Below, in pieces: positions 2,540 through 61,737 of a stretch of 64,000 bases of DNA. The DNA is taken from contig CATLTV010000001.1 in assembly GCA_950059285.1 (NCBI GenBank), forward strand, positions 1-64,000. The letters are read 5' to 3'. Made by a program: the position numbers and the translations under genes. The number at the start of each line of letters is the position of its first letter. Positions within the stretch are counted from its first letter, which is position 1. The stretch is from an uncultured Pseudomonadota bacterium. Its GTDB lineage: Bacteria; Myxococcota_A; Bradymonadia; Bradymonadales; Bradymonadaceae. The notes under the pieces were generated by a model that worked only from the letters and a program-made list of their open reading frames with translations, ran no database searches and had not been told where the DNA came from.

Positions 2540-2591
2540 AAGAAAAGAGAGATGGCGCATGGGGCAACCCATGCGCCATCTCTCTTTTCTT
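2540..2591 (+). terminator. 24-bp perfect hairpin terminator
   Basis: Perfect inverted repeat: 24-bp arms (2540-2563 and 2568-2591) around a GCAA loop. The left arm is purine-rich and the descending arm is pyrimidine-rich (TCTCTTTTCTT). It lies 45 bases after the PAAEE lipoprotein stop. It is one of the window's family of unusually long stems. Confidence 0.85.
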
Positions 2592-3337: not shown

Positions 3338-5005
3338 ATGTTCAATATCGAGAAGAGAACAGTGAAGCAGCGTCTAGTGCAAATGATGTGTCTTGCGCAG
3401 TTGGGGCTTGTGACGTTTGGAGGGATGAGCGTTGTGAGTCCTGGCGATGTTTTTGCTCAGGATGAAGGTGGGGAAGATGATGGCATGAGCTTCGGCGTGG
3501 ATGAGGTTGAGGATGTGGATCCCAACTCGGCAGCGGCCCAGTACATGGAAGAGGGCAAGCGTCTCTACAAGAAAGAGAAGTATGCTGAAGCGAGCCTGTT
3601 GTTCTTCAAGGTGTTGTCTCAGGAAGATCCTGGTAGTGAGGCGTTGATTCCCGAGGCTGAGTACGAGCTTGGCAAGACATTGTTCAGGATGGAGCTTTAC
3701 CAGGGAGCGTTGACCTACTTTGGTCGCGTGGTGGATGCGGGTGAGATGCACCCGTATTATCTGCAGACCTTGCGAGGGCTTGTGCTGTTGTCTGATGAGA
3801 TTCCATCGGACCAGACCTTGATGATGCGCCTGTCTGCGTATGCCAGCCAGTTCCCCGAGAATGTGCCCAAGAAGTACCGTGATAGCTTTGCCTATCTTGT
3901 GGGGCGTTATTTGTACTCTTCAGGGGAGTATGAGCAGGCGCTTGAGCTGTTGAAGTTCATCAAGCCAAGCAGCAAGTATTATCTGCCTTCACGTTACATC
4001 TCTGGTGTGACACATGTGGGTAACTATGATGCAAAGCCGGCGGTGGCATCCTTCAAGGATGTGCTTCGTCCGTTGACTCGTAAGCTTGAAGAGGGGTCAT
4101 TGACCATTGAGGAGAGGGCATTGCTTGAGCAGACCTGGTTGGGTATGGCTCGCGTGTTCTACTCCACAGGTGAGTACAACAAGGCACTGAAGTATTATGG
4201 TTTGATTCCAAGGAAATCACCCGAGTGGCCCAAGGCATTGTTTGAGTCAAGCTGGGCATACTTCCAGCTTGACCTCGCCAACAAGGCGCTTGGTAACTTG
4301 CACACTTTGAACTCGCCGTTCTTTGCAAACTTCTACAGCCCCGAGGCGCCCATCCTTGCAGGCGTGATCTTCTTCTACAACTGCAAGTACTCCAGGGTCA
4401 GGTACGAGCTTGAGGAGTTTGAGTACTCCTATCTTCCTGTGAGAGAAGAGATCGATGGTTTGCTGGCCAAATACGAAGATCCTGCCGAGATTTACACCTG
4501 GCTAGAGGAGCTTCAGAAGGGTGCCAGCAGTGGTGAGGATGAGCAGTTGATGCGTATTCTTGCTGCAAGTGTGGACGACAAGGAGATTCAGCGTAAGATC
4601 GATCTTGTCCGTGATATTGACAAGGAGCTTGAGAAGCTCAAGGAGTTCCCCAACACATGGCGCAACAGTCCGCTCGGGACTGTGCTTGTGCAGGACTCCT
4701 CGGTGGCCAAGGAATTTGCCATCAGCGAGCTGGGAGAGCTGGTTCGCGCAAGGCTTGAGCGTATTCAGCGCGAACTTGTTGACTTGAACGTCAACAGGGA
4801 GAGGATTCTGTTTGAGGTTGACCGCGCCGAGCGTGGTAAAATCGAGGCAGAACTCAGGGCCGAGATGACCATTGACTCAAACGACACGAAGACCAAGAAG
4901 GTCAAGGTGACCGATGAGCAACTGTACTGGACCTTTGATGGCGAGTACTGGAAGGATGAGTTGGGATTCTACCAGTTTACGGTGAACTCATCCTGTGTAC
5001 GCTAA
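3338..5005 (+). CDS. periplasmic TPR protein at head of Glt-like cluster
   Basis: Secreted tetratricopeptide-repeat protein, 555 aa. The signal peptide spans about residues 1-40 (cleavage near V-F-A/Q), followed by an acidic linker and TPR units beginning around residue 68 (A-x-Q-Y-M-E-E-G-K-R-L-Y). The repeats run to roughly residue 330; a charged, coiled-coil-like part (about 430-520) and a distinctive tail (F-D-G-E-Y-W-K-D-E-L-G-F-Y) follow. The start is supported by AAAGGAAA about ten bases upstream. It precedes the GltD-like gene by about 270 bases, separated by a hairpin terminator, so it may be a separate transcription unit. By context it is a periplasmic component of the same envelope assembly; the exact orthologue is uncertain. 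Confidence 0.8.
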   Translation: MFNIEKRTVKQRLVQMMCLAQLGLVTFGGMSVVSPGDVFAQDEGGEDDGMSFGVDEVEDVDPNSAAAQYMEEGKRLYKKEKYAEASLLFFKVLSQEDPGSEALIPEAEYELGKTLFRMELYQGALTYFGRVVDAGEMHPYYLQTLRGLVLLSDEIPSDQTLMMRLSAYASQFPENVPKKYRDSFAYLVGRYLYSSGEYEQALELLKFIKPSSKYYLPSRYISGVTHVGNYDAKPAVASFKDVLRPLTRKLEEGSLTIEERALLEQTWLGMARVFYSTGEYNKALKYYGLIPRKSPEWPKALFESSWAYFQLDLANKALGNLHTLNSPFFANFYSPEAPILAGVIFFYNCKYSRVRYELEEFEYSYLPVREEIDGLLAKYEDPAEIYTWLEELQKGASSGEDEQLMRILAASVDDKEIQRKIDLVRDIDKELEKLKEFPNTWRNSPLGTVLVQDSSVAKEFAISELGELVRARLERIQRELVDLNVNRERILFEVDRAERGKIEAELRAEMTIDSNDTKTKKVKVTDEQLYWTFDGEYWKDELGFYQFTVNSSCVR

Positions 5006-10128: not shown

Positions 10129-10130
10129 GT

Positions 10131-10180
10131 AAAAAAGAATGAGGCCGAGCTGACCAGTCAGCTCGGCCTCATTCTTTTTT
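10131..10180 (+). terminator. 24-bp hairpin terminator
   Basis: Perfect 24-bp arms (10131-10154, 10157-10180) with only CA between them, starting two bases after the GltE-like stop. The left arm begins AAAAAAGAATG and the right arm ends CATTCTTTTTT, so the U-tract is paired within the stem. Confidence 0.88.
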
Positions 10181-10270
10181 ATTTTTCATGGAACATGAAC
10201 CTGTTTGAGGTGTCAGAAGTTATGCGTAAATTATAAAGTGAGCAGGATAAAACAACAGTGGGAGGTTGGT

Positions 10271-14068: not shown

Positions 14069-14136
14069 GAAAAGAAGAGAACGCAAGAGGCGCCTGCTGA
14101 CATGTCAGCAGGCGCCTCTTGCGTTCTCTTCTTTTC
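14069..14136 (+). terminator. 68-bp loopless perfect palindrome
   Basis: Perfect palindrome with 34-bp arms and no spacer (centre TGACA/TGTCA), starting six bases after the FHA-AgmX stop. Arms run purine-rich to GAGGCGCC and back. Presumably a terminator; the lack of a loop is unusual. Confidence 0.88.
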
Positions 14137-14870: not shown

Positions 14871-14934
14871 AAGACAAGAAAGCAAGAGGGCGCGATGGCT
14901 GACAAGCCATCGCGCCCTCTTGCTTTCTTGTCTT
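14871..14934 (+). terminator. 30-bp hairpin terminator
   Basis: Perfect 30-bp arms (14871-14900, 14905-14934) around a GACA loop, ten bases after the AgmX lipoprotein stop. The descending arm is CTCTTGCTTTCTTGTCTT. Confidence 0.88.
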
Positions 14935-16089: not shown

Positions 16090-16456
16090 TGCTCCCAGGT
16101 GCGATTTACATGCTTCAGAGTGTATGTGTGGTGTGGCAAAACCCGCGCACATGCACATGCTCTCTGATGCATAACTTTGTTTCAGTACACACCCCATAGT
16201 TGCCGCTCTTTGTGGCCTTGTGTTATAGCTCATGGGTTGTGTTTATGTCTGCTTAATGCAGGCGATTGGATAGATCTGGAGCGTGATGAAGAAGGAGATG
16301 GTCGGAACTGACCTGTTCTTGCTTTGGTACGCTTTGAAGACGTTTCTTTACAGTCAGTTGTTCCTGACATGACGAAGCCCGTGGTTGGTTTTGGATAATT
16401 ATTGTGTCAGGGCAATCTTTTCAACAAGACTCCACCCTCCACGAGTGTTCACACCG
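16090..16456 (+). other. 367-base gap before the giant TPR gene
   Basis: No hairpin terminator, clear promoter or convincing ORF found. It presumably holds the promoter of the giant gene. This is the only long junction in the envelope block without a strong palindrome. Confidence 0.35.
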
Positions 16457-19400
16457 ATGACTTTCGAGAGCCAGGTTCAGTCATATTTTGCAGCCCTAGA
16501 GGCAGATCCTCATAACATGAATGCACTCGCCAGTTTGCGCGACCTGTACAAGGAACGCGCGGATTGGGGAGAGCTGATTAGCGCGTTTCACGAGCAGGCC
16601 CAGCAGTCCGCCAACGCGGAGCTTCAGGCGCGCTATTTGTTTTCGGCCAGTCGTCTGGCCAAGGATGGACTTCGTGATACGGAGCTTGCGTCAAGACTTC
16701 TTGAGCTTGCGCAGGGCGCAGGTCAGCAGACAGGAGTCCTGTACGAGATTCAGCTGTTTGCCTACGAACTTCATGAGCAGTGGGCGGAGCTTGAAGGGTT
16801 CTTTGAGCAGGCCAGCGAGCATGTCGGCGATACTCGACTGAAGGCGCGTCTGTATACCCAGCTTGGTGATGTTTTTAAGAATACGCTCGAAGATGCGGAC
16901 CAGGCGCTTGCCATGTACGACTACGCGGGCCAACTCGATACCCAGAACCAGGTGCCCTTGCGACGTAAGCAAGAGATTTATGAGTCCCGAGGGGCTGCCG
17001 ACGAGCTTGTCGCTTCGCTCTATCAGGAGCTTGAGCTTAGCCAGGATGATGAGCGCAAGCTTGAGCTGTTGATTCGCATGGGACAGACCTATGAGAGCGC
17101 AGGCCAGCATGACGCTGCAATTCAGTGCTACCAGAGCGTTCACGACGCGCTCCCCATGGAGTCACGTGCTCGCGCAGGTCTTGAGCGTCTTGGACAACCT
17201 GTGCAAGCTGTGGAGCAAGAACCTGCCTACGGTATCGATGAGTTGTCGGGTGATGAGGCTCCGCTTGAGGGTGTGGAGGTCCCTGTCTCTGCTGGATTTA
17301 GCGAGGAAGAGGCAAGCGGTGTAACACCTGTAGACGAGGACGCAACCATGCAGCACATCCCTGCGATGTCTGCTGATATGGTGGAGGAGCCACCTCAGAC
17401 AGGTGCTACCGAAGAGTTTGTGCTGTCCGATATTGTCGAGGAACAAGCAGAAGAGTCTGCGCCCGTTGAGGTTGAGAGTGTGCCCGAGCCACCTCAGGCA
17501 CCACCTGTACATCAGACCGAGGAGTTTGTGCTCTCGGATATGGTTGAGCCCGAGGTTGAAGAAGTAACCCCAGAGATCGAGCCTGAACTTGAGCCCGAGG
17601 TTATCTCCGAGGTTGAGGTTGCTCCCGAAGAAGATGTGGTTGAGGAGCCTGTAGAGCCCGAAGAGATCCTCGCCGTACCACCTGAAGAGGAAGGTGAAGA
17701 AGACGTATATGAGGTCTTTGAAGAGGACTTCACGCCTGTCGACGATTACGCGGATGAGCCCGAGGAGGATGTCTCTGCGGACGCAGGTTCAGAGAGCTGG
17801 ACCGCTCAGTTTGAGCGTAATGTGGAGCTTGTAAAGAGCGATGTGTCCGAGCGTGAGCGTCAGATCGCGCTGCACAATGCAGCGTTGCTTGAGTGGCTCC
17901 ATCGCAGTGAGTCTGCTGGCCTTGGCTTGGACCTCTGGAGCGTGGCTTTTGAGCAAGGTCTTGGCGAGTATCTCTATGAGAACTTTGCATTCCGTTACAG
18001 CGGTGATGAGTTCTGGACAGGCGTGCTTGAGCTTGCTCAGGAAAAAGAGCAACCCACACGATTGCAGGCCGAGATTGCGCTCTTTTATGCACACAATCAG
18101 GAGCGCGCAGCTGAGCTTGTCGCAGAGGGATCTCTTGAGGATCTTGCGCAGTTGCTTGAAGACCGCGAGGCCGCCATTGATAATTGGCGCAAGTACCAGC
18201 GCAGCGTGGAACAGCGTCACCCCGATCTTGAGCGCGACCAGAAGAACCTCGTCGTGTTCACCGAAATGGGCAAGATGGCAAGGTTGCTTGCAGACGATGA
18301 AAAGCTCCTTGATGCGCTTCGTCGCCTGGACCGTGTGAGCGAAGCTCCTTACATCAAGGGTACACTCCAGCTCATTTATCTTGAGACAGACAAGTGGCCT
18401 GCCTACGTGGATCTTGTCAAGCAAGAGGCCGAGGCGCTCCCTGAAGATATGGATGAGGCTCGTATTATCCTCTTCCGCGAGGCGATTCGTGTGTACACAG
18501 GGCCCATGACGCACGATATGCAAGCGGTCTCCATGTACAAGAGGATCCTCGAAGTCGATCCGACCGATATGGAGTCCATTGATGCGTTGATCGAGCTGTA
18601 CGAAAAGAACAACCGCACCACTGATCAAATTGCGCTCCTTCAGCAAAAAGTGGACCTCGCCAGGGGCAAACGCGCCAAGGTGCGCATCCTCTCGGATGTG
18701 GCCAAGACCTATTTGAGCAAGCGCAACCAGGCCGAGGCAATCAAGGCATATGAGCAGGTCCTTGAGATTGCACCTCACGATCAGGAGGCGTTGGAATTCC
18801 TTCGTGAAATGTATGAGAAGCGTCGTGACTGGACAGGTTTGATCGATGTCTTCAAGCGTCAGATCGCGCTGATGGGTTCTGCGCAAGAGCGTCTTGATGG
18901 TTACAAGAGCGCCGCGCAGGCTGCCTCTGACAACATCAGGGACCCCGAGCCAGGTATCGAGCTGTGGAGCGAGGCGCTCAAGCGTGCTCCTCAGGATATG
19001 GAGGTGCTGGGTAACCTTGAGGCTCTGTACGAGAAGAAGCGTGATTATGAGGAGCTCGCGACGATTCTGGAGCGTCGTGTCAAGCTGGAGTCTTCACCTG
19101 ACGAGAAGATGAAGATCTACCAGAAGCTTGGCATGTTGCTTTCAGACAGAGTGCAGGCCCCCGATCGCGCGATACGCGCATGGCAAGGCGCGTTGCGTCT
19201 TGACCCCAATGACCTGAAGGCGCGTAAATCGCTTGAGCGTCTGTACATGGAGCACAAGCGTTGGGATGATCTTGAACGTCTCTACGCAAGCCAGGGGGCT
19301 TATGCCGACCTTGCTCGTGTGCTCGAGACACTTGTGGGCGCGAGTGATTCGGATGAAGACAAGGTCGAGCTTCTTTTGAGGAGTGCTGCCCTGTGGCAGG

Positions 19401-28883: not shown

Positions 28884-28947
28884 GCAGATACGCGAAGAGG
28901 GGCGGCCAGTTACTTCAGTAACTGGCCGCCCCTCTTCGCGTATCTGC
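28884..28947. terminator. 31-bp hairpin, first of a tandem pair
   Basis: 31-bp perfect arms with a 2-nt centre (TC); after one mismatch a further 5 bp pair (CAACG with CGTTG, outer limits 28878-28953). It lies between two convergent genes, so it can terminate both. Its inner core GGGGCGGCCAGTTAC is shared with the next palindrome. Confidence 0.88.
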
Positions 28948-28957
28948 CCGTTGCAGG

Positions 28958-29033
28958 GATGAAAAAGGAAGGCCCGTGGGGGCGGCCAGTTACCTAGGTA
29001 ACTGGCCGCCCCCACGGGCCTTCCTTTTTCATC
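28958..29033. terminator. 76-bp loopless perfect palindrome, second of a tandem pair
   Basis: 38-bp arms with no spacer (centre TACCT/AGGTA). The core GGGGCGGCCAGTTAC matches the preceding hairpin, but the outer arms (GATGAAAAAGGAAGGCCC here) are unrelated to it. It sits 43 bases past the stop of the minus-strand lipoprotein gene. Confidence 0.9.
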
Positions 29034-34208: not shown

Positions 34209-34282
34209 AAAGAGAGAGCCCCCATGGAGGGCAATGTTCAACCTCCAGGTTGAACATTGCCCTCCATGGGGGCTCTCTCTTT
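34209..34282 (+). terminator. 36-bp hairpin terminator
   Basis: Perfect 36-bp arms (34209-34244, 34247-34282) with only CC at the centre, five bases after the M3 peptidase stop. It ends in CTCTCTCTTTTTG. Confidence 0.9.
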
Positions 34283-36372: not shown

Positions 36373-36434
36373 GAGCCCGAGGAGGGGGCGGGCCAAAAAA
36401 TCAAAGTTTTTTGGCCCGCCCCCTCCTCGGGCTC
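36373..36434 (+). terminator. 28-bp hairpin terminator
   Basis: Perfect 28-bp arms (36373-36400, 36407-36434) with a 6-nt loop TCAAAG. The inner stem is A6/T6 and the outer part contains GGAGGGGGCGGGCC. Located 75 bases after the 158-aa gene. Confidence 0.88.
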
Positions 36435-41983: not shown

Positions 41984-43621
41984 ATGATCCACGTCAATGA
42001 TGTAAGTATTTCGTTTGGTCCTCGCCCGCTTTTTGATGATGTGCAGGTGAAGTTCACCCCTGGCAACTGCTACGGTATCATCGGAGCAAACGGTGCAGGT
42101 AAATCGACCTTCTTGAAGATCCTCAGCGGTGAGCTTGAGCCCGACAGGGGAGAGGTGGTTCTTGGACCACGCTGCCGTCTGGCCGTGCTCAAACAGGAAC
42201 ACTTTGCGTATGAGGATGAGCTCGTGCGTGATGTGGTGATGAGTGGTCACGAGAGGCTCTGGAAGATTGGTAAGGAGCGCGATGCGCTCTACTCCAAGGA
42301 AGACTTCTCCGATGAGGATGGAGTGCGTGCGGGAGAGCTTGAGATCGAGTACGCAGAGCTTGGCGGATACGAGTCCGAGCAGGAAGTGGTCACACTTCTT
42401 ACAGGACTTGGTATTGAGGAAGAGCTGCACGGTCGCTACATGCGTGAGCTTGAGGAGGGCAAGAAGGTTCGTGTCCTGCTTGCTCAGGCATTGTTTGGTC
42501 GTCCCGATATTTTGCTTCTTGATGAGCCTACCAACGGTCTTGACTGGCGCTCCATCGAGTGGCTTGAGGATTATCTGATCAACTATCCTCACACCGTGAT
42601 CGTGGTCAGCCACGACCGCCAGTTTTTGAACAACGTTTGTACACACATTGCAGACATCGATTACCGCAAGATGCGCGTCTATGTGGGTAACTACTCGTTC
42701 TGGCAGCAGGCCAGCGAACTTGTGGAACAACAGCGTCGCGATCAGGCCAAAAAGAACGCCGATAAAGCCAAGGATCTCAAGAAGTTCATTGAGCGCTTTA
42801 GCTCCAACGCATCCAAGGCAAAGCAGGCGACCTCGCGTAAGAAGATGCTGGAGACCCTGACGCTTGAGGATCTCCCCGTCTCATCAAGGAAGTACCCACA
42901 CGTCGTGTTCAAGCCCGAGCGTGCATGTGGCAAGTCCGTGCTTGAGGTTAAAAACCTCACTGCGAGCGTTGATGGGACCGTGGTGATCAAGGATCTTAGC
43001 TTCATGGTCAACCGCGACGATAAGATCGCCTTCGTGGGCTATGATGATGTGGCGCGTACCACGTTGATGCGTATTCTTGCAGGAGAGCATGAGCCCGATA
43101 GTGGTGAAGTGATCTGGGGAACGACGATTACATCCTCATACTTCCCTCGTAACCATGAAGAGTATTTTGATTCCGATCTCAAGCTCACCGAGTGGTTGCG
43201 TCAGTGGGCCGAACATAACGCGACTGAAGAGGTCATGCGCGGTATGCTTGGCAGGATGCTCTTCAGCGGAGATGATGCGATTAAACCAGCTCGCGTGCTC
43301 TCTGGTGGTGAGAAGGTGCGTTGCATGTTGTCACGCATGATGTTGACAGATGCCAACGTGTTGATCCTTGATGAGCCCACCAACCACCTTGATCTTGAGA
43401 GCATCACCTCGCTCAACAACGCCCTGATCAAGTTCAGCGACGTGGTCCTGTTCACCTCACCTGACCGTGAGTTTGTGAACACCATCGCAAACCGCATCAT
43501 TGAATTCACCGCGCTTGGTGACATTCAGCGCCACATGCCATTTGATGAGTATCTCAAGGATGAGCAGGTGCAAAAAGAGCGCGCTGTGATTTATGCAGAC
43601 CGTGATGATGTCAGGATCTAA
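41984..43621 (+). CDS. ABC-F ATPase, YbiT-like, degenerate second site
   Basis: Two-domain ABC-F protein of 545 aa, closest in layout to YbiT. NBD1: Walker A G34-A-N-G-A-G-K-S, the YbiT-style non-canonical signature (E-E-G-K-K-V-R-V-L-L-A-Q-A-L-F), D-E-P-T-N-G-L-D and V-S-H-D-R. A long charged linker ends S-K-A-K-Q-A-T-S-R-K-K-M. NBD2 keeps L-S-G-G-E-K-V-R and D-E-P-T-N-H-L-D, but its Walker A reads G352-Y-D-D-V-A-R-T-T (both inner Gly lost, Lys to Arg) and the switch His is Pro (T-S-P-D-R-E-F). NBD2 therefore looks unable to hydrolyse ATP normally. Probably a ribosome-associated factor with asymmetric ATP use. Confidence 0.9.
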   Translation: MIHVNDVSISFGPRPLFDDVQVKFTPGNCYGIIGANGAGKSTFLKILSGELEPDRGEVVLGPRCRLAVLKQEHFAYEDELVRDVVMSGHERLWKIGKERDALYSKEDFSDEDGVRAGELEIEYAELGGYESEQEVVTLLTGLGIEEELHGRYMRELEEGKKVRVLLAQALFGRPDILLLDEPTNGLDWRSIEWLEDYLINYPHTVIVVSHDRQFLNNVCTHIADIDYRKMRVYVGNYSFWQQASELVEQQRRDQAKKNADKAKDLKKFIERFSSNASKAKQATSRKKMLETLTLEDLPVSSRKYPHVVFKPERACGKSVLEVKNLTASVDGTVVIKDLSFMVNRDDKIAFVGYDDVARTTLMRILAGEHEPDSGEVIWGTTITSSYFPRNHEEYFDSDLKLTEWLRQWAEHNATEEVMRGMLGRMLFSGDDAIKPARVLSGGEKVRCMLSRMMLTDANVLILDEPTNHLDLESITSLNNALIKFSDVVLFTSPDREFVNTIANRIIEFTALGDIQRHMPFDEYLKDEQVQKERAVIYADRDDVRI

Positions 43622-43631
43622 GTTCTTGTGA

Positions 43632-43699
43632 ATCAAGATAAAAGAGAGGGGGCGGCCTGTGATAGTCATCACAGGCCGCCCCCTCTCTTTTATCTTGAT
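43632..43699. terminator. 32-bp hairpin, first of a tandem pair
   Basis: 32-bp perfect arms (43632-43663, 43668-43699), loop AGTC. Core GGCGGCCTGTGAT/ATCACAGGCCGCC. Located 10 bases after the ABC-F stop. Confidence 0.9.
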
Positions 43700-43703
43700 G
43701 GAT

Positions 43704-43773
43704 GACCTAACAAACAAAGGAGGGGCGGCCTGTGATGACTATCACAGGCCGCCCCTCCTTTGTTTGTTAGGTC
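43704..43773. terminator. 33-bp hairpin, second of a tandem pair
   Basis: 33-bp perfect arms (43704-43736, 43741-43773), loop GACT. Its core is the same GCGGCCTGTGAT as the previous hairpin but with the complementary loop, i.e. the core in inverted orientation; the outer arms differ. Located 17 bases beyond the RRM gene stop on the minus strand. Confidence 0.9.
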
Positions 43774-43790: not shown

Positions 43791-44048
43791 TTATCTGCGC
43801 TGGCGATCCTTGGCATAGTCCACATGAATGGACCTGCCATCCAATTCCTCACCGCTCAGGTTGACTGCCTTCTGTGAGGAATCCTCACTATCAAAGGTTA
43901 CAAACCCAAAGCCTCGCGAGCGACCTGTCTCACGGTCAGTGATGACCTTTGCTTCGACAACGTCGCCGCATTGTGAGAAAAAATCAGCCAGTGAGTCATC
44001 GGTGGTGGCCCACGCCAAACTGCCTACAAAAACCTTCTTGCTTGCCAT
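43791..44048 (-). CDS. RRM-type RNA-binding protein
   Basis: Single RNA-recognition-motif protein of 85 aa, like the cyanobacterial Rbp and other bacterial RRM proteins. RNP2 is V-F-V-G-S-L (6-11) and RNP1 is R-G-F-G-F-V-T-F (46-53), with the aromatic residues that stack on RNA. The short basic tail (K-D-R-Q-R-R) has no Gly-rich extension. AAGGAG lies at the right distance before the ATG. Bacterial members are often cold- or stress-induced, but no regulatory site is visible here. It is divergent from the cryptochrome gene. Confidence 0.93.
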   Translation of the reverse strand: MASKKVFVGSLAWATTDDSLADFFSQCGDVVEAKVITDRETGRSRGFGFVTFDSEDSSQKAVNLSGEELDGRSIHVDYAKDRQRR

Positions 44049-53419: not shown

Positions 53420-53491
53420 AGACATAGGCAGACCCAAAGAGGGGGCGACTTCGCTAGCGAAGTCGCCCCCTCTTTGGGTCTGCCTATGTCT
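53420..53491. terminator. 72-bp loopless perfect palindrome
   Basis: 36-bp arms with no spacer (centre TCGCT/AGCGA), between convergent genes: 9 bases after the thioredoxin-like stop and 11 bases beyond the kinase stop. Arms contain AAAGAGGGGGCG. Confidence 0.9.
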
Positions 53492-61546: not shown

Positions 61547-61617
61547 CCAAAAAAGAGGCCATCAGGGGGCGAAAATTTACTCCGTAAATTTTCGCCCCCT
61601 GATGGCCTCTTTTTTGG
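61547..61617 (+). terminator. 34-bp hairpin terminator
   Basis: Perfect 34-bp arms (61547-61580, 61584-61617), loop TCC, two bases after the glnS stop. It ends CCTCTTTTTTGG. Confidence 0.9.
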
Positions 61618-61673: not shown

Positions 61674-61737
61674 GAGAAGGTGCGTCAAGGAGGGCGTGAT
61701 TTGCAGGCAAATCACGCCCTCCTTGACGCACCTTCTC
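61674..61737. terminator. 31-bp hairpin just before the AAA+ coding region
   Basis: Perfect 31-bp arms with AG at the centre, 56 bases after the glnS terminator and ending 8 bases before the ATG at 61746. Either a second glnS terminator or a leader hairpin of the AAA+ gene; it would be inside the frame if the ATG at 61650 were used. Confidence 0.85.

Follow-up and report, generated by a model that had tools for sequence, protein, structure and literature searches.

The window, the 64,000-nucleotide stretch of DNA analysed here, contains an ABC-F ATPase gene (41984..43621, + strand) that converges on a gene for an RRM RNA-binding protein (43791..44048, − strand), and two palindromes lie in the gap between them. 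Palindrome 1 (43632..43699) has perfect 32-bp arms around an AGTC loop and starts 11 nt past the ABC-F stop codon, and palindrome 2 (43704..43773) has perfect 33-bp arms around a GACT loop and ends 17 nt from the RRM stop codon; neither is assigned to a strand, and each is predicted to be a bidirectional intrinsic terminator. Only 4 nt separate the two, and within each the arms are 100% complementary. This agrees with an earlier note on this DNA, which had placed two palindromes with a common core, reverse-complementary loops and differing outer arms between these genes. The common core proved longer than first stated, spanning 34 bp of the form GGGGCGGCCTGTGAT[AGTC/GACT]ATCACAGGCCGCCCC, with one copy at 43649..43682 (+ strand, loop AGTC) and the other at 43722..43755 (− strand, loop GACT, the exact reverse complement). 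A 12-mer of this core occurs once more in the 6.65-Mb genome, on contig C36. As single-stranded DNA the region has a folding z of −19, a terminator scan gave 13 terminator-like matches against 0.7 expected, and no Rfam match was found in the window.

Since the arms are symmetric, only the four loop bases reveal orientation, so the inverted core copy described in the earlier note holds for the loop, and 'inverted core' here means 'inverted loop'. Because ABC-F and RRM converge, AGTC and GACT have the same orientation relative to each palindrome's own gene, and each hairpin, read from its own gene, has the loop AGTC. The outer arms of the pair differ, giving the arrangement (a-core-a')(b-inverted core-b').

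A scan of the window yielded 14 perfect palindromes with arms of 20–38 bp, all without strand assignment. Besides the pair described above (site B), a second pair, site A, occupies a convergent gap, where palindromes at 28884..28947 (arm 31) and 28958..29033 (arm 38) have the core GGGGCGGCCAGTTAC in common. Site B had been thought to repeat the logic of site A; core sharing is indeed found at both, but the loops of site A are not inverted copies of each other. Further palindromes of the same class lie at 2540..2591 (arm 24), 10130..10181 (arm 25, beginning immediately past a stop codon), 14069..14136 (arm 34), 14871..14934 (arm 30), 34209..34282 (arm 36), 36373..36434 (arm 28), 53420..53491 (arm 36, with a CTAG apex and alone in a convergent gap), 61547..61617 (arm 34, with a C-TCC-G triloop) and 61674..61737 (arm 31).

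Across 2.19 Mb of the source genome we counted 332 palindromes that are perfect over arms of 20 bp or more (151 per Mb), which scales to about 1000 in the whole 6.65-Mb genome. By comparison, 1.36 Mb of other bacteria, family relatives included, contained 9, and a 1-Mb Markov-1 simulation produced none with arms of at least 14 bp. The palindromes have arms of 20–42 bp, an AT-rich centre and a GC-rich mid-stem, and their total length has its mode at 68–72 bp, with almost none above 84 bp. The pattern GGGGCG-N10..40-CGCCCC occurs 359 times in the source genome against 6 for a control pattern, and in family relatives at 0.7 to 2.7 times control, with the exception of one genome (G012, 4 against 0). 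A loose core-and-loop pattern, GGCG-N4-TTTRC-N3-GYAAA-N4-CGCC, has 72 copies in the source genome and none among 188 further genomes from the phylum. Exact core patterns had no match in IMG/VR, and a search limited to openly accessible papers found no report of such palindromes in bacteria.

Contig ends of the source genome (G000) often fall inside palindromes (for example L190:1-34, L216:1-70, L227:1-63 and the end of L031), and 11 palindromes lie within 150 nt of a contig start among 88 starts, against 2.6 expected. Shared cores thus probably break up the draft assembly, and the genome probably holds more palindromes than this. Among class relatives, G028, G034 and G042–G044 (genus g21) carry ATTTGCGCAGCAAAT 5–17 times per genome, in two places as pairs of 61 and 80 nt; these repeats were rejected as members of the same class, as there is no long perfect palindrome at the loci examined, L246, L247 and three from family f5 (G041–G043). 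Perfect 64-bp palindromes with 32-bp arms also occur in two related bacilli, Bacillus sp. MCCB 382 (L120:5669-5732) and Rossellomorea sp. SC111 (L124:5754-5817); several symmetric positions distinguish the one from the other, so that the two may serve as a natural test of arm copying.

With genes called by a simple hexamer method and gaps of at least 60 nt considered, a palindrome is present in 67% of convergent, 25% of co-directional and 6% of divergent gaps, and the median distance from stop codon to palindrome was 14 nt. The outer 3' arm is T-rich: T outnumbers A in 278 of the 290 palindromes from convergent and co-directional gaps. Like known intrinsic terminators, the palindromes follow stop codons, have a GC-rich stem succeeded by a T-rich 3' tract and can be common to convergent genes. 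Their anatomy is probably that of bidirectional intrinsic (Rho-independent) terminators, since a purine-rich left arm combined with a pyrimidine-rich right arm would make a terminator in both directions. They differ from known intrinsic terminators in their flawless 20–42 bp arms and in their DNA-type apices, either 3-nt GNA/TNC or CTAG/CTTG; the spacers of bacterial terminators are typically 4–5 nt (PMC13155455). Rho is present in the source genome, so the palindromes are no substitute for a missing Rho, and a loss of Rho forcing intrinsic termination is ruled out. Alongside the full-length protein, the source genome (G000:C323:3559-4401) and its relatives throughout the family have a second, shorter Rho-like protein that matches Rho positions about 130–414.

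The arms themselves are almost never imperfect. In the first megabase, 166 of 176 palindromes were flawless and 10 had one or two mismatches, an arm likeness in keeping with inverted repeats homogenised by template switching. In 35 cases the gene-side arm extends past the stop codon into the coding sequence, by at least 9 nt in 18 of them, and the codons are mirrored in the far arm; at L064:16277-16353, a gene end together with its TAA stop codon has its mirror image on the far side. At L079, two convergent gaps hold one and the same 72-bp palindrome between unrelated flanks, a single base pair having changed on both arms. A sub-family with the core ATCAGTGATGCGA or GCAGTGATGCGA (L064:13763-13817, 16277-16353 and 16916-16984; L200:5646-5720) has a 5-nt loop, GAAAA/TTTTC, in both orientations, and in one of its copies both arms seem to have gained 8 nt symmetrically. 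The L079 base-pair change and the L064 trio are paralogous hints from within one genome.

Taken together, the scarcity of mismatches, the mirrored coding sequence and the DNA-type loops argue that either arm is copied onto its partner by way of a hairpin. Homogenised arms and inverted loops are known outcomes of template switching (PMC8604942, PMC8794818), and the palindromes would share both features with template-switch mutation in inverted repeats (yeast, bacterial rRNA); single events were deduced there, whereas about 1000 sites look saturated here, the events likewise being deduced. Nematomorph mitochondria also carry flawless palindromes, apparently kept up actively and with no known cause (PMC6649704). 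Those palindromes are similarly numerous, long and restricted to one lineage, but they lie within mitochondrial genes, whereas the ones described here lie at bacterial gene ends and have terminator polarity. Loss of a suppressor of palindromes or hairpins was rejected as a cause, as the known suppressors examined, SbcD, the ExoVII large subunit (XseA), RecJ and MutS, were all found, the RecJ match being partial (414 of 546 positions).

Selection for RNA folding might by itself also keep ordinary intrinsic terminators long and perfect, through compensatory mutations that accumulate base by base. The position past stop codons, the T-rich 3' arms and the enrichment in convergent gaps would all follow from such selection, and bacteria in general carry perfect inverted repeats where genes end (PMC13155455). 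It does not, however, explain why the arms still pair 25–35 bp away from the centre, outside the T-rich part, nor does it account for the mirrored coding sequence and the near-absence of mismatched intermediates, and we regard it as unlikely. Mirrored codons and pairing 30 bp from the centre are explained by arm copying and not by selection on RNA structure. Moreover, the genes of family relatives end without such palindromes in the few gaps compared, and the apices suit DNA, with no orientation bias in the RNA sense.

This last point rests on the loops. Among palindromes with 3-nt loops, 68 of 87 (78%) have C(GNA)G or C(TNC)G, although the nominal binomial p for this preference overstates independence, because many palindromes are related by shared cores. 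The same loops are absent from the comparators (0/16 and 0/3, together 0/19 in other bacteria) and account for 2/12 and 10/33 of the loops in shorter palindromes of the source genome. Other apices include CTAG, CATG, CTTG and TTTA. C(GNA)G is an extra-stable DNA mini-hairpin, and C(TNC)G is its view from the other strand (PMC4686876). The apices here match the C-GNA-G turn of the d(GCGNAGC) mini-hairpins (PMC4686876 and references therein); those are known from oligonucleotides, whereas here the turn is enriched in a genome and sits mostly on a TTTRC or AAATC stem rather than GC. In co-directional gaps the triloops are oriented 12 to 11 relative to transcription, which means that selection does not act on the loop as RNA of one particular sense. 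The loop pattern fits hairpins formed by DNA at the replication fork.

Such apices would equally suit an element that acts as DNA, in which GNA-capped cruciforms or single-stranded hairpins are recognised by a protein, as a supercoil sink, an insulator, or a replication or recombination site, with termination being secondary. The match to extra-stable DNA mini-hairpins, the AT-rich centre with its GC-rich mid-stem, and lengths that peak at 68–72 bp and end near 84 bp are in line with this idea. Yet the strict polarity, purine-rich on the left and pyrimidine-rich on the right, and the location at gene ends are needed by a terminator and not by a cruciform, and no candidate protein was identified, leaving a primary role of this kind improbable.

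Cores, too, are shared between neighbouring palindromes. Three of 11 neighbours less than 300 bp apart have at least 12 core nt in common, compared with 0.17% of pairs on different contigs, and all three lie in convergent gaps with 4–10 nt between the palindromes. Cores are thereby shared in three of the five closest convergent pairs, whereas L216 and L239 are equally close and show no sharing. Exactly inverted 4-nt loops were found in two of the three core-sharing pairs, site B (AGTC/GACT) and L197 (CAGA/TCTG); two informative loops are few, and the outcome has a chance of 0.25 if orientation is random. At L226, two differing palindromes 1.5 kb apart (2422-2498 and 3988-4060) have an identical 25-nt right flank that holds a small hairpin, TCCTTGAACGTGAGTTCAAGGA; small hairpins are somewhat enriched in flanks generally (47/658 against 17/522 in the control).

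These observations bear on the suggestion of the earlier note that some process homogenises cores within a site. The flawless arms, the mirrored coding sequence and the core sharing among the closest convergent pairs uphold it, and there is good support for a process by which one arm is copied onto the other and cores pass from a palindrome to its neighbour. Its scope has to be redrawn, since site B is one of about 1000 such sites and some adjacent pairs have no core in common, which speaks against a special two-palindrome device; homogenisation as a genome-wide process, with site B as one case, is supported.

Recurrence of cores throughout the genome, including the 72 copies of one loose pattern, and the twofold occurrence of the L079 palindrome with unrelated flanks could also reflect a mobile palindromic family, similar to REP/BIME, MITE or Rickettsia palindromes, that has inserted after genes. 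REP/BIME sequences associated with RAYT are extragenic palindromes as well, sometimes in alternating orientation, but the palindromes studied here are without a conserved foot (GTAG in 9/332 against 8 in the control), and no Y1/RAYT transposase was found in the genome. Target-site duplications of at least 4 nt accompany only 3 of 332 palindromes, and the RYYYAAC ... GTTRRRY ends of integron attC sites are present in 1 of 332. The outer arms, furthermore, are unique to each site and include host coding sequence, which makes insertion of a mobile family very unlikely. An assembly or amplification artefact, which the fragmented draft with its contig ends inside palindromes might bring to mind, is scarcely credible, as the palindromes are contig-internal with different unique sequence on each side, their arms end at about 35 bp where an assembler fold-back would go on as a reverse copy of the gene, and they sit at gene ends with a fixed T/A polarity.

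We therefore favour, as the probable explanation, that these palindromes are oversized bidirectional intrinsic terminators whose arms stay free of mismatches because replication slips onto the hairpin that they form. This reading joins features present in the sequence itself, namely the perfection and position of the palindromes, their T-rich 3' arms, mirrored coding ends, DNA-type loops and core sharing, and with it we infer terminator activity, a polymerase mechanism and an order of events within a pair. At the fork, where DNA is single-stranded, a short terminator core would fold into a hairpin, and would do so best with the tightest-turning apices (C-GNA-G, CTAG, CTTG and TTTA). DNA polymerase would then copy one arm and its gene-side flank onto the opposite side before returning to the template. 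Such copying could mend mismatches, flip the loop and let the arms grow to about 35 bp, in places reaching into coding sequence. Where a single terminator stands between convergent genes, one out-and-back switch could add a second core in inverted orientation, the product being (a-core-b')(b-inverted core-b'). Later arm copying in the first unit would convert this to (a-core-a')(b-inverted core-b'), with the outer arms of each palindrome derived from the flank of its own gene.

More tentatively, the lineage may possess a hairpin-copying process, either dedicated to the task or unusually active, by which gene ends are rewritten continuously across the genome, with terminator palindromes extended and proofread from their own flanks and capped with DNA mini-hairpin loops. 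If so, mutation rather than selection would maintain these terminators, and the DNA hairpin may be functional in its own right. The origin and upkeep of long perfect stems is an old puzzle, for which template switching has been proposed mostly from single events. With about a thousand sites in one genome apparently shaped by it, one could directly measure how fast copying occurs, which loops it prefers, where growth stops and in which direction it runs. It would also follow that a mutational process can keep up a functional class of signals, here terminators, and that the C-GNA-G DNA mini-hairpin, familiar from work on oligonucleotides, leaves its imprint across a genome.
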